Assembly: GCA_903813345.2 (NCBI GenBank)
Contig: CAIIXF020000009.1
Location: 22,531,759-22,595,758 of the forward strand
Direction of reading: 5' to 3'
Length of the DNA stretch: 64,000 nt
DNA from: Owenia fusiformis
Taxonomy: Eukaryota; Annelida; Polychaeta; Sabellida; Oweniidae
Positions 50,201 through 56,200 of the stretch are shown in pieces. A program made the translations under genes and the position numbers. How positions within the stretch are numbered: the first letter of the stretch is position 1; the number at the start of each line of letters is the position of its first letter. Below the pieces are notes generated by a model. That model had not been told where the DNA came from and did no database searches. It saw only the letters and a list, made by a program, of their open reading frames with translations.

Positions 50201-53200
50201 TAATATGTCAAGTCTCCCAATACCTTATTCTGCCAACCCTTTGATAATATGTCAAGTCTCCCAATATCTTACTCTGCCAACCCTTTGATAATATGTCAAG
50301 TCTCCCAATACCTTATTCTGCAAACCCTTTGATAATATGTCAATTCTCCCAATATCTTACTCTGCCAACCCTTTAATGTCAAGTATCCCAATACCTTACT
50401 CTGAATTCTATAAGCATGGCACACTGTCTAATGACACTTTTGGTACAAAGTGGCCATTTTGAAAAATGGCTGCCATTTTTGCTATATACTTTGTTTGTAA
50501 AAATACCAGCCATGGCTGTTTGATGGGATTTGCTATACTTTGGCGTTGCTGTTGTCTAGTTTTGGGAAACTATCTACAGGAGTGGGAAAGTACCTCCTGT
50601 GGAATTTGGTGAGACAAAGTGTCTCGAACAGAATCTATTCTCTCAGAAAGAATGGTTTGAATGTTTTCCAAGTGGTGAAGGAGAAGATAAATGTAGAAAA
50701 TATGACGTAGAATAATAGGCCTTTGAGGTTGCTCTGATTGAAAGTTTTGTCAGTGCAGTAGAGTAAATGTCTGGGTATAAGAATGTGTGCAAGTGAGACA
50801 AGGGGTTACATGGATTGCAGGGCTTTCAGTAAAATAAGAAAAGGCTAGAAGGTCAGGACAGGGCTATATAGAATAGTAAAGATGGGTTTGGAAAGTGGAG
50901 GAACATTTAAGATCTGTTGAGATGATATTGAGGGCATTGAGAACTTTGTACAATTGAAAATTTGAAAATAAAGTGAATATGAAAATTGTATAATGTCTCG
51001 GCTTATATGTTTAGGAACTTAAGAGCCCCTCCCCCCCCTTAGATTTGTTTACCAATTAAGGAACATTAATCATAAGTGACTTTGATCACTCGGTAATAAA
51101 AAATAATGCACATAAAGAAGAGAAATATATAACATAAATACTTCATGACAAGAATATGTTTTAGTTTCCCTAGTCTAGACCCTGAACCTGCTCCCCCTAT
51201 CTACTTGAAGTAGATGGAGGGGATGTCTTGTCATCTCATTATACGCTTCAATGGTCCTCACCTGATTATAAAAACATTAGTACAAAATGGATAAACTTCC
51301 GTCAGAGGAAATTTTCATTTTCAACATTTTCACCAAGAAGGTCAATTTGTATCCAAAAATTTTACTGAAAAGTGAATCAGTCGCAAGTATATAAATCCAT
51401 GGACCCTAATAATTGACTGAGAAACCCCTTACTAAAAATCAGAGAGGGAAGTCTTTTATCCAGGTGGAGACCAGTGTTCTTTGAGCATAATTAATTTGCT
51501 TGATTCACAATAACACTGCTATTTTATATTCCAGGCCTATGAGAAAAGGTTCCCGACATGTAAGATGATACCAGTTTTTCTCGGAAGTGACACCCTCAGT
51601 GAATACAAGAGTGACGATGGTGCAATACACGTAATTGAGAGGCGGTGCAGGCTTAATGTAGATGCTCCTTACCTCTTGAAGAAGGTTAGTCTTCCTCTCG
51701 TAGACTTCTCATTCTTTGAGCCCTTGTGGCTTGCACCTTTTCGTGGAATTTAATGTGCCAATAGACACTGGCATGTAGCGGCCCTGATATCGATAAATTC
51801 TACACGCAATATAACTCGATTTTAGATGCTTGGTTAAAACTTTACACGAAAAAGCCTCGATATCCGGGCATTTACTCTTACACTGAACTGAAAATAGCAT
51901 CGTCTAAACGTGTATGTCTTGGCTTCCGGGTAAGTTTATCAACATTTATACTCAATTGAAAGAGCAGTCGTGCTTATATCGTGTACCAGTTTGATTGTTT
52001 TATATGTGTGTGTATTTATAATATGATAACCTAGTAATACCGTGTCGTTAGAACAAGTGCTAGATATCGAACTGATGACCTGAAATTAGATTATTGGACT
52101 GATCGCGCATCTGATATTAGATGATTAATTTGCATTGAATCTGATATTAACTTGCAACCTAATGCCACAGTAAATACAATGACTTTACATTAGAATGATA
52201 ACACGGCCTCATATTCTAATTCATTATACGTCCATTGCAGGCCAAAAATGTTTCAATGTGGATATTGTAATGCACACGATAATACATTCGATTCGTATAT
52301 ATTGATCATACATCAATATCCTAGATGCGAGTAGAAATAATCTTGATTTACGTCATTAAAAATTCACAATTCTGTCAAACTGGTGTCATATTTGGAATCT
52401 ACATATAAAATTTCATCTAAAAATGTGGTTTTGAAAATAGTTTATCAACTTTGAAAATTTAATTTTCTTTGACAATGTGATTTCTAGGTCGGGGAGATTC
52501 CCCATAGCACGCCTAACCATCGCGTAAGCAGGCGTCACCGTACAGCGTCAAAAAATACAGTAGTACAGTTTTCTGTACGGTGACGAAAATTAACTGAGTT
52601 GAAGCAAAAACTATAATGAGGGTTTTAAAAAGATTAATTAGATGAAAATAAATACGATTTCGGGTGTAATGAAAACAGCATTCTCTTAGGAATGGTTTTA
52701 ACTTTCTAATTATGATAAAAGTTTTTCGAGCACTGCTCGGATTTTTTCTGACTGGATCGGCGATTCGGCCCACATAATCGACTCGAGAGAAAAATGGTGT
52801 TTTTTTTCACTTTTCGTTTGGTTATTATTTTCCCTGTCGTCTGAGAGTATGGATTATTTTTATGAGAATATGTATTTGTTATCTACACATTTTAGAACAG
52901 ATGAATATTCGACAAATAATCATTCAGTGTATTTATTTAAAAAAGATAAGAACTGTACGGTGACGCATCAGCTGTACGGTGACGCTTCCTTAGATTTTAT
53001 GAAGTGCTCTAAGCTTACTGTTCGAACAAGAGGTAAAGAAGCGTCAGATCTACATGTACATTATCACTGGGAAGTATCAAGCGAAGGTTACAGTCGTCAC
53101 CTTCGCATTTAAGATGGCGGACAGGAAGTATTAATTTCGATATTTTTAGTTTTCATGGAATTAACTATTTGAAAGTTGACGTAATGCTTTGGTATCATTT

Positions 53201-56200
53201 GAACTAAACCAGGCTTTTCTCATATGACTAACAAAGATAGCCTACACAGCCATCTTTACCCCATGCACTATATATGAACAAATGATCATACTCCAGAGTT
53301 TCCATTTCATACAATCTTAGTCTCATTTAGTTCATCAAAGCATAGCGTCACCGTACAGCTGGTGCGTCACCGTACAAATTTGATCTTTTTTAAATATACA
53401 TAATGAATGGTTGTTTGCTGAATCTTCGCCCGTTCTAAAATGTGTAAGTAACAAATACATATTCTCATAAAAATAATCCATACTCTCCGACGGTAGGGAA
53501 AATAATAACCAAACAAAATGTGAAAAAACAACCTTTTCTCACTCTGGTCGATTATGTGGGCCGATTCACTCAGAAAAAATCCGAACAGTGCTCGTAAAAC
53601 GTTTATCATAATCAGAAAGTTAAAACCATTTCTAAGAGAATGCTGTTTTTATTTCACATGAAATCGTATTAGTTTTCATCAAATTAATTTTTTTAAACTC
53701 TTGTCATGGTTTTTGCTTCAAAGCAGTTAATTTGCGTTACCGTACAGAAAACTGTACTCCGCTATTTTTTGACGCTGTACGGTGACGCCTGCTTACGCGA
53801 TGGTAAGGCGTGCATAGACCCCATGTTGTAAAACTACAAAAAGCGAAATATCGTTTCTTGTGGGCAGATAATATTTTCTTTTACTGGACATATTTTAATT
53901 TGTATAACTATGACATACATAAGGGTAATTTCAAAAGTGAACCACTAAAACTGATGCATATTCAAGTTTAAGGGAATTTTTTGTAATACCCTGCCATGTT
54001 ATTTCCCCCGAATCAGCCACCTGGTGGCGAAACTGGTAACTACCTACTCGCATCTGAGTAATTGAACATGGAGATTTTCCTGTACACTTTTCCCAAACAT
54101 GTGGAATAGACTAGATGCGAGTAGAAATTATCTTAATTTATCCTATGCCAAGTAGGGTTTTAAGTTTAGGGAGATAGGGAGTTTAGGGATAGGGTTTAGG
54201 GAGATAAGTTGGTAAGATATATCCCGTATCCTGATTTTTAGGTTTCCATATCAAGAACCTCCATATCTCCCGTCATATCTCCCGCTTCGGTGCATATCTT
54301 CCCGCTTCGGGGCGTATCTTCCCGCTTCCAAAAAAGTGGAAATGCAATAAAATGACTTTGCATATGAATGATTTGTTTATTTTTTACACCTTGTACTACT
54401 GAAAACTCTACTTGGTATAGGATAAAGCAGTTATGTACGGTTGGTTTGGATATTGGGTTCATCCCTCGTGAGATATGCACATCTACTTTCTGTCCCTACG
54501 GTCCCTCAGGTAGATATGCATATCTCACTCTGGAAAAACCCCATATCCAAAACCTCCCAGTACATAACCCTTATTTATCCCATGGTTACAAGGATATTGA
54601 TCGAATATCACGTGAAGATATAATTGATACGTGGATGAAGATATCATATTTTAGCAAACAATTCCCAAATCATCGAATATCACTTTTGAAACCATCGAAT
54701 ATCACTTTTTGAAAGGTGATATTCGATGGTTTCAAAAGTGATATTCGATGGTTTTGATTTTTTCAATTTTTTTATTATTCAGCAAAACGATTGTTTATAT
54801 ATTTATTATATATTTTTATTTTTTGGGATCTTGTTTTTACGGCGTTCGCATTAAATACAAACCACTCTTTTACGTCACGTATATGACGTTCGTTGAATTA
54901 TCGCAATCAAAATCTCAGACGAAATGGAATTTCCATTGCAATTTATCTGACTATTCAATGTTCGCTGGATAATAATTCCCAATGGGATAAACGGACAATC
55001 CTATGGTTTTTCAAAAATATCACTTATATCCACTCATGGATATCAATATCTTCACTCATTCACTGCGCTCACTCGCGAAGATATCAATATCCACTCATGG
55101 ATATAAGTGATATTTTTTCAGAGCCATAGGATATTCCTATATTATTCCATAGTTAGCATGATATCCATAGGATAACATGTCAAAATAAAAACGGTATTTT
55201 TGAAATCAGTGGTAAAATATGATATTTTTGGCAGAGGAGGAGGGAAGTTAGTGCAACAGATTTTGGACAGTCATGTTTGATTTTGGCCATTTCCTGGAGA
55301 TTTAAACAGGTGCATGTGTTAGGCGAGTGCATTAGCTCCAAGAAAATCACTTCTAGAGATGATAAAATAATTTTGACTTTGAGACAGGGTAGATGCAAAC
55401 AACCCACCCACATGTTTTTTCTGAAACGTTTTCCTGATTTTCAACCCCTTCCATCCCTGCTTTTTTAATTTTTCTTGCATTAATATGTAGCATTTTGACA
55501 CACAGATAATCCCTTAAAAGGAATAAATGATTCCTTTTAGATAAAGTGGAAAACAATATTTCCCATGTTATTTTCCCATAGGAAAAAACATTGCTTTCAG
55601 CTAAGTTTGGTCACCCATAATGGGTACCTTTAAAACCCCTGAAGGAATCACTTATTCCTTTAAAGTGGTTAACTATGTGTCAAAATGCAACATATTGATG
55701 CAAGAAAAATTGAAAAAGCAGGGGTGGAAGGGGTCGAAAATTAGGAAAACATTTCAGAAAAAAACATGTGGGTGGGTTGTTTGCATCTACCCTGTCTCAA
55801 AGTCGAAATTATTTTATCATCTCTAGAAGTGATTTTCCTGGGGGTAATGCATTGGCCTAACATATGCAATTGTTTAAATCCTCAGAAAATGGCCAAAATC
55901 CAAAATATGACTGTCCAAAATCTGTTGCACTAATTTCCCTCCTTCTTTTCACTTAACCATAGCATACGGTGTTTTAGCCATGGCATACATAGGGGTTATG
56001 CACTGGGAGGTTTTGTATACAGGGAATATCCCGAGGGATATACAATATATCTTCCCGAGGGACCGAAGGGACCAAGGGAAGATATATTGTATATCCCAAG
56101 GGTTATTTCCTGTATCCAAACCGACCATGCATAACTGTAGGTATTCCATACCTGAAGAGGTTTGAAATAATAAGCATGTATCCCATATGCTCTGGTGTGT

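Follow-up and report, generated by a model that had tools for sequence, protein, structure and literature searches.

Transposons of the Tc1/mariner type with an inverted repeat/direct repeat (IR/DR) organization, such as Sleeping Beauty and Tc3, carry transposase sites at both extremities, outer and inner, of every long inverted repeat. Galileo, an element of the P superfamily from Drosophila, has a target duplication of 7 bp, whereas that of the elements described here is 5 bp. Like these elements, Galileo displays long foldback-like terminal inverted repeats (TIRs) containing several sites for the THAP domain of the transposase, is known only from defective copies, and occurs as several subfamilies per genome, two of which lack the site of the first (PMC3688188). 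Why certain transposons retain arms that are hundreds of bases long is an unsettled question. The present analysis concerns a foldback element localized at positions 52508-53812 of a stretch of 64,000 nucleotides from the annelid Owenia fusiformis (hereafter the window; assembly GCA_903813345.2, contig CAIIXF020000009.1, positions 22,531,759 to 22,595,758 of the forward strand), and its relatives in the same genome. These elements, divided here into the families A, C and D, probably represent a clan of non-autonomous cut-and-paste transposons whose repeated sites are read at both ends by a transposase acting in trans.

The window element belongs to family A and has a length of 1305 bp, for a family consensus of 1486 bp. 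It is bordered on both sides by the target-site duplication CATAG, of exactly 5 bp (52503-52507 on the left; 53813-53817, an exact match, on the right). Its termini are CACGCC and GGCGTG: it starts with CACGCCTAACCATCG and finishes with the near-complement of this sequence. The first-pass annotation had proposed a foldback element with GCACGCC ends at 52507-53813; the foldback structure is confirmed, and the extent is corrected to 52508-53812, the outermost G and C being bases of the duplication. The left arm (52508-52995, plus strand) aligns with the positions 1008-1486 of the consensus, reversed, with 86% identity, and the right arm (53334-53812, minus strand) with the positions 1-479, reversed, with 87% identity, which gives arms of about 480-488 bp. 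Approximately 176 bp of the center (positions 758-933 of the consensus) are missing in this copy. At the junction (53260-53273) the two alignments overlap by 14 bases, including CCCATGCA, and the gap resembles a deletion between short repeats. No open reading frame of the window of at least 180 amino acids overlaps the element (52508-53812), and the longest stop-to-stop frame inside it comprises 136 codons. The Rfam scan of the region 52000-54400 gave no match at the gathering score, and the phage comparison gave none either.

Each arm contains four copies of the motif GCGTCACCGTACAG; among the eight copies, five are exact and three present one mismatch. The layout is the same in both arms: an inverted motif pair occupies the tip region, and a direct pair, with a period of 19 nt, the inner edge. 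In the left arm, the tip site 1 (52532-52545, plus strand, exact) is followed by its inverted partner, site 2 (52573-52586, minus strand, one mismatch), and by the inner tandem pair composed of site 3 (52953-52966) and site 4 (52972-52985), both exact and on the minus strand. The right arm contains, from the inside to the tip, site 4 (53345-53358, plus strand, exact) and site 3 (53364-53377, plus strand, one mismatch) of the tandem pair, site 2 (53734-53747, plus strand, one mismatch) and site 1 (53775-53788, minus strand, exact). The eight symmetric motifs announced by the first-pass annotation, with two pairs per arm at tip and inner edge, were thus all located, as four symmetric pairs. Only two further matches, each with three mismatches, were detected in the window, both outside the element, and the expectation from shuffled sequences was a mean of 0.86 matches.

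For family A, the search of the genome (498 Mb, 525 contigs) recovered 160 matching pieces in the 40 candidates that were scored out of 1721. A pattern of 30 bases taken from the tip of family A, with at most two mismatches, was found at 282 genomic sites and its reversed control at none. The genome search for motif pairs that had been recommended at first pass gave 319 tandem pairs (TGTACGKTGWC twice), for zero in the control. The consensus of family A was built from 13 of the 15 fetched loci (L004 and L015 were left out, having no usable right or complete end), and it shows arms of about 480 bp with a mutual identity of 86.5%. Divergence from this consensus is mostly about 1%, with values of at most 1.2% in 14 of 17 copies and of 2.3, 5.9 and 6.1% in the remaining three. 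Since the arms are only 86.5% identical although most copies differ by about 1% from the consensus, the arms of family A diverged before the copies spread.

Both ends could be recognised in 50 elements, of which 40 have an exact 5-bp duplication, with members of the families A, C and D among them. This number is the sum of three batches: 28/33 (L021, L029, L041, L042 and L043 being without an exact duplication), 7/11 (L053, L055, L056 and L057 without) and 5/6 (L068, L076, L077, L080 and the C1 copy of family D positive, L073 negative). The row of L019, which combines the tips of two different elements, and the duplicate row L051 were not counted in the first batch, nor were the second rows of L054 and L060 in the second; loci without both recognised ends stay outside the 50. 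In 36 of the 40 exact duplications, 138 of 180 bases (77%) are A or T, as compared with 65% for the whole window. The mobility of the family, which had been suggested from the window sequence, is established by the many dispersed copies and these duplications. An origin of the arms by chance or by simple inverted duplication without mobility could appeal only to the weakness of the arm statistics given below; it is refuted by the dispersed copies with exact 5-bp duplications and by motif numbers far above those of shuffled sequences, and its probability is practically nil. TIRs, dispersed copies, a fixed 5-bp duplication and the lack of a transposase gene were all found, and the window element is a non-autonomous DNA transposon (a long-TIR miniature inverted-repeat transposable element, or foldback element).

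Family C was revealed by removing from the tip pattern a stretch of 12 bases that is present in A and absent from C, D and several diverged relatives. The pattern without these A-specific bases, with at most three mismatches, detected 560 tip sites, 100 of them listed, and the control none. The tip of family C is CACGCCTAACCATCGACAACGTACAG, and its ends, its 5-bp duplication and its site layout are those of A. Its consensus of 1444 bp derives from 10 of 11 fetched copies (L062 was omitted because it is short), and its arms are 88.2% identical to each other. The arms of A and C are 69-71% identical. The clan formed by A, C and D lacks coding capacity and is characterized by the ends CACGCC..GGCGTG, by exact 5-bp duplications and, in A and C, by arms of about 475 bp.

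In both arms, the sites 1, 3 and 4 have the sequence GTCACCGTACA in the consensus of A and GACAACGTACA in that of C. At the two diagnostic positions, which distinguish A from C, these three sites share the same substitutions in both C arms and in the D right arm; when site 2 is included, 7/8 diagnostic columns differ between A and C and 8/8 between A and D. Simulations of independent drift from a common site produced this result (two families with three identical sites each and at least two shared positions of difference between them) in none of 400,000 trials at each of 10, 15 and 20% per branch, for diagnostic positions and a drift test that were both picked after the data had been seen. Among the 100 tandem pairs listed of the 319, 59 are A/A, 35 are C/C, six contain one intermediate site and none places an A site beside a C site. 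These pairs present 26 different spacers; this tally is not a count of events, because the copies derive from few masters.

A concerted change of this type could also arise by molecular drive, if functionless sites were homogenised by recombination or local duplication in the arms. The inner sites are in tandem and could copy from each other, and foldback arms can convert. The tip site, however, is about 400 bp from the inner pair and its surroundings are different, yet it shows the same two substitutions. An identity of just 86.5% (A) and 88.2% (C) between arms indicates that no recent wholesale arm conversion has occurred. Homogenisation also fits badly with family D, in which the inner pair kept its distance while most of the outer arm was lost, and we consider it unlikely as the origin of the two site versions.

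The family D example is situated in locus L068 (3957-6089, 2133 bp, duplication GTTGA). Of 40 places scored in a search with its left 1334 bp, 30 are 96-97% identical. The D tips are identical to each other over 78 bp. From tip to inner pair, the left arm aligns with the right arm with a score of 67.5, as compared with a mean of 57.3 for 200 shuffles (standard deviation 7.6, maximum 81.0), and these arms are considered as unaligned; the score of D left with C left is 74.0 (computed without shuffles), whereas the own-arm scores are 551 for A and 521.5 for C. Nonetheless, the D tandem pairs begin at 444 and 463 bp from the left end and at 436 and 456 bp from the right end.

The concerted change of distant sites and the place retained by the pair when most of the D arm was lost point to one protein that reads all sites. 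Since the elements carry no gene, this reader would come from elsewhere, and would most simply be a transposase. We infer that the motifs are transposase recognition sites in an IR/DR-like layout. The transposase would be supplied in trans by an element outside the loci found, and would recognize the repeated 11-mer, which is GTCACCGTACA in A and GACAACGTACA in C, both at the tip and in the tandem pair located about 440-470 bp from each end, as in IR/DR elements or the long TIRs of Galileo type. The two ends would be synapsed and cut beside CAC with a 5-bp stagger, and the long arms would persist because the number and the spacing of the sites matter more than the arm sequence. Gene-less families with common ends and differing arms indicate which parts are retained, namely the ends, the tip site and the distant tandem pair; they offer a testable claim on the purpose of long arms, and the sites of A and C form two natural versions with which binding can be tested.

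The sites could instead be read by a regulatory protein of the host, such as a zinc-finger factor, by which the element would be driven or silenced. A precedent exists in ProtoRAG, where a YY1-like factor of the host binds a cis-element in the TIR (PMC7481187). Symmetric sites in both arms of gene-less elements would nevertheless fit a protein specific to the family better, as would the presence, in a single genome, of two site versions that go with transposon families, and the host regulator appears quite improbable.

The first-pass annotation had based protein binding on the idea that the motifs were kept while the rest of the arms drifted; binding itself is favored by the concerted change of the sites and by the retention of the D pair, whereas the conservation argument has weak support. 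Between the left and right arms of the A consensus, 50/52 motif columns and 373/437 other columns are identical (Fisher p 0.030), a result equalled by 5.9% of random sets of four 13-nt blocks. The corresponding values for C are 50/52 and 361/414 (Fisher p 0.067; random blocks 3.5%). When five arms of A, C and D are compared together, 34/52 motif and 219/473 other columns show no variation (p 0.012). C left with D right gives 46/52 and 369/416, and C right with D right, the sole pair between families that leans to motif retention, 46/52 and 328/406 (random blocks 8.5%).

Several results weigh against the transposase reading. The left-right conservation of the motifs is marginal, and between families the motifs taken whole are no better retained than the other columns. 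The A and C left arms share 39/52 motif and 290/414 other columns (random blocks 31%), their right arms 38/52 and 280/405 (32%), and A left with D right 35/52 and 277/404 (58%). Without the two diagnostic positions, the motif columns shared by A and C are 38/44 and 37/44, as equalled by 11% of controls. In single copies, mismatches affect 23/1750 motif and 266/14779 other positions in A (n = 17, p 0.18), and 48/1006 and 323/8482 in C (n = 10, p 0.14). Across many copies the motifs are thus no better conserved than the arms, an outcome that the first-pass annotation had named as contrary to its proposal and that also favors homogenisation; such equal decay would be anticipated for copies that are free to degenerate once inserted. 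The longest stretch without variation in the five arms, TATTTTTATGAGAAT (arm position 339-353), is not a motif. All these statistics describe few master lineages, the copies not being independent. At the level of the sites, site 2 is changed at one of the two diagnostic positions in C and to another base in D, and the D sites 1 and 4 bear additional single changes. The right arm of D also aligns with about 50 bp surrounding the left pair, and the retained unit may therefore exceed the sites. Two short derivatives, L044 (649 bp) and L047 (334 bp), have an exact duplication without an inner pair (at most one mismatch), which suggests that this pair may be accessory, helpful without being essential. 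Finally, no element combining CACGCC..GGCGTG ends with a transposase frame was found among the 80 fetched loci, a small part of the copies; the autonomous element sharing these ends, proposed as a check at first pass, is absent from this sample.

The candidates for such a partner were rejected as follows. Long tip-to-tip spans (L016-L021, L022, L023, L031 and L080) correspond to the same elements enlarged by inserted sequence, to two adjacent elements or to fragments, and no transposase frame was found in them. Ten of 42 places with tip variants were fetched: L076 and L077 are nearly complete family A elements, and the others are truncated or diverged. In L070, the first 194 bp match family C, without a right end within 3.4 kb, and the longest frame has 79 codons. 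Frames of at least 180 codons were detected in 10 of the 80 loci, six of which belong to a RAG1-like element; those of L006, L034, L073 and L079 are outside the parts aligned to A, C or D, and L034 and L079 are by eye similar to long interspersed nuclear elements. Family D was considered as a longer, perhaps autonomous form, and its extra length includes a nested Tc1/mariner-like fossil (L068, around 4674-5260, between inverted repeats of about 150 bp with 79% identity), which we take, from recognition by eye, to be a transposase remnant reading QYPGNSPDLNVTEN. With the profile PF12940 (E up to 10), three weak matches were obtained in the genome, each of them in a copy of another element; the 14 control genomes were silent, and a RAG1-like transposase with CACGCC ends may therefore have escaped this profile. 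The RAG1-like element is represented by two copies of about 5.3 kb (L038 328-5668, minus strand of the locus; L040 260-5625) with a frame of 726-729 amino acids and by a third, broken copy. This frame is weakly RAG1-like (Pfam E 0.0022, below the cut-off; best PDB RAG1 E 8.3e-4), and no clear target duplication was found in the copies examined. The TIR of this element (CATATCGAG..; 24 bp, beginning CATATCGAGATTTTAGCGTCA) and the absence of the motif argue against its being the partner.

Other insertions were observed in these loci. One family A copy is inserted within the arm of another (L019 1-3041). Another family A copy contains an insertion of about 4 kb (L018 362-4421) with inverted ends of about 510 bp (88%), which represents another long-TIR family of the same genome. 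A miniature relative of about 190 bp with the same tip sites (L025 1358-1560, minus strand) lies beside a sequence that is exon-like by eye. In the window, direct repeats of 36 nt (89%) flank the element at 52315-52350 and 54105-54140, separately from the CATAG duplication, and the region 54160-54330 contains short tandem-like stretches rich in GGGAGATA and TCCCGCTTCGG. An uninterrupted, intronless frame of 2743 codons, Ser/Lys-rich and with an RS-rich part near its end, is located at 8974-17205 on the minus strand.

Nothing recognised as the families A, C or D was found in the openly accessible literature. The membership claimed here is that of non-autonomous DNA transposon only: the CAC..GTG ends and 5-bp duplications recall Transib or hAT5, neither of which is established, and no transposase was found in elements with these ends in the fetched loci, where no search was aimed at hAT or P-type transposases. 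The statement made at first pass that no known superfamily fits is not demonstrated, since these ends and duplications overlap with Transib (within CMCT) and hAT5. That the clan is moved by a transposase from a superfamily still to be described, or from an aberrant branch of Transib/CMCT, with a 5-bp stagger, CACGCC ends, a tip site and a tandem pair about 450 bp inside, is a tentative and rather doubtful proposal; under it, A and C would document a transposase and its site in two versions, changed in concert in the same genome.

The elements share sites at the outer and inner arm ends with the IR/DR elements of Tc1/mariner, and differ from them by the duplication, which is TA in Tc1/mariner and a varied, AT-rich 5-bp sequence here. 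Galileo-G has its extra sites in long direct repeats, whereas the arms here combine a tip site and its inverted partner with an inner pair (PMC3688188). The foldback element Tetris, of Mutator type, likewise has long TIRs, no open reading frame and a missing autonomous partner; its duplication is of 8-10 bp instead of 5 bp (PMC4079207). Kolobok and KolobokP have 5'-RR..YY-3' termini and TTAA, in contrast with CA..TG and varied 5-bp duplications here, and the solo repeats of KolobokP have duplications of 3-5 bp (PMC9587614). In Ginger2/TDD, 5-bp duplications are produced by TDD-4/5, and the termini are TGTNR instead of CACGCC (PMC2836005). CMCT elements mostly have CA..TG ends and duplications of 2-5 bp, and those of hAT5 are of 5 bp (PMC12730594), the likeness to hAT5 being one of duplication length. 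The Transib/RAG-like elements share with the clan the 5-bp duplication and CAC as first triplet (PMC8289069, PMC4411706). ProtoRAG depends on the first CAC and little on bases 4-7, and its duplications are GC-leaning (PMC8289069). The ends of the families A, C and D are CACGCC, with variation in individual copies. The Transib/RAG-like heptamer CACTATG/CACAGTG (PMC8289069) differs from CACGCCT here, and the GC bias of their duplications contrasts with the 77% of A+T observed in this clan.

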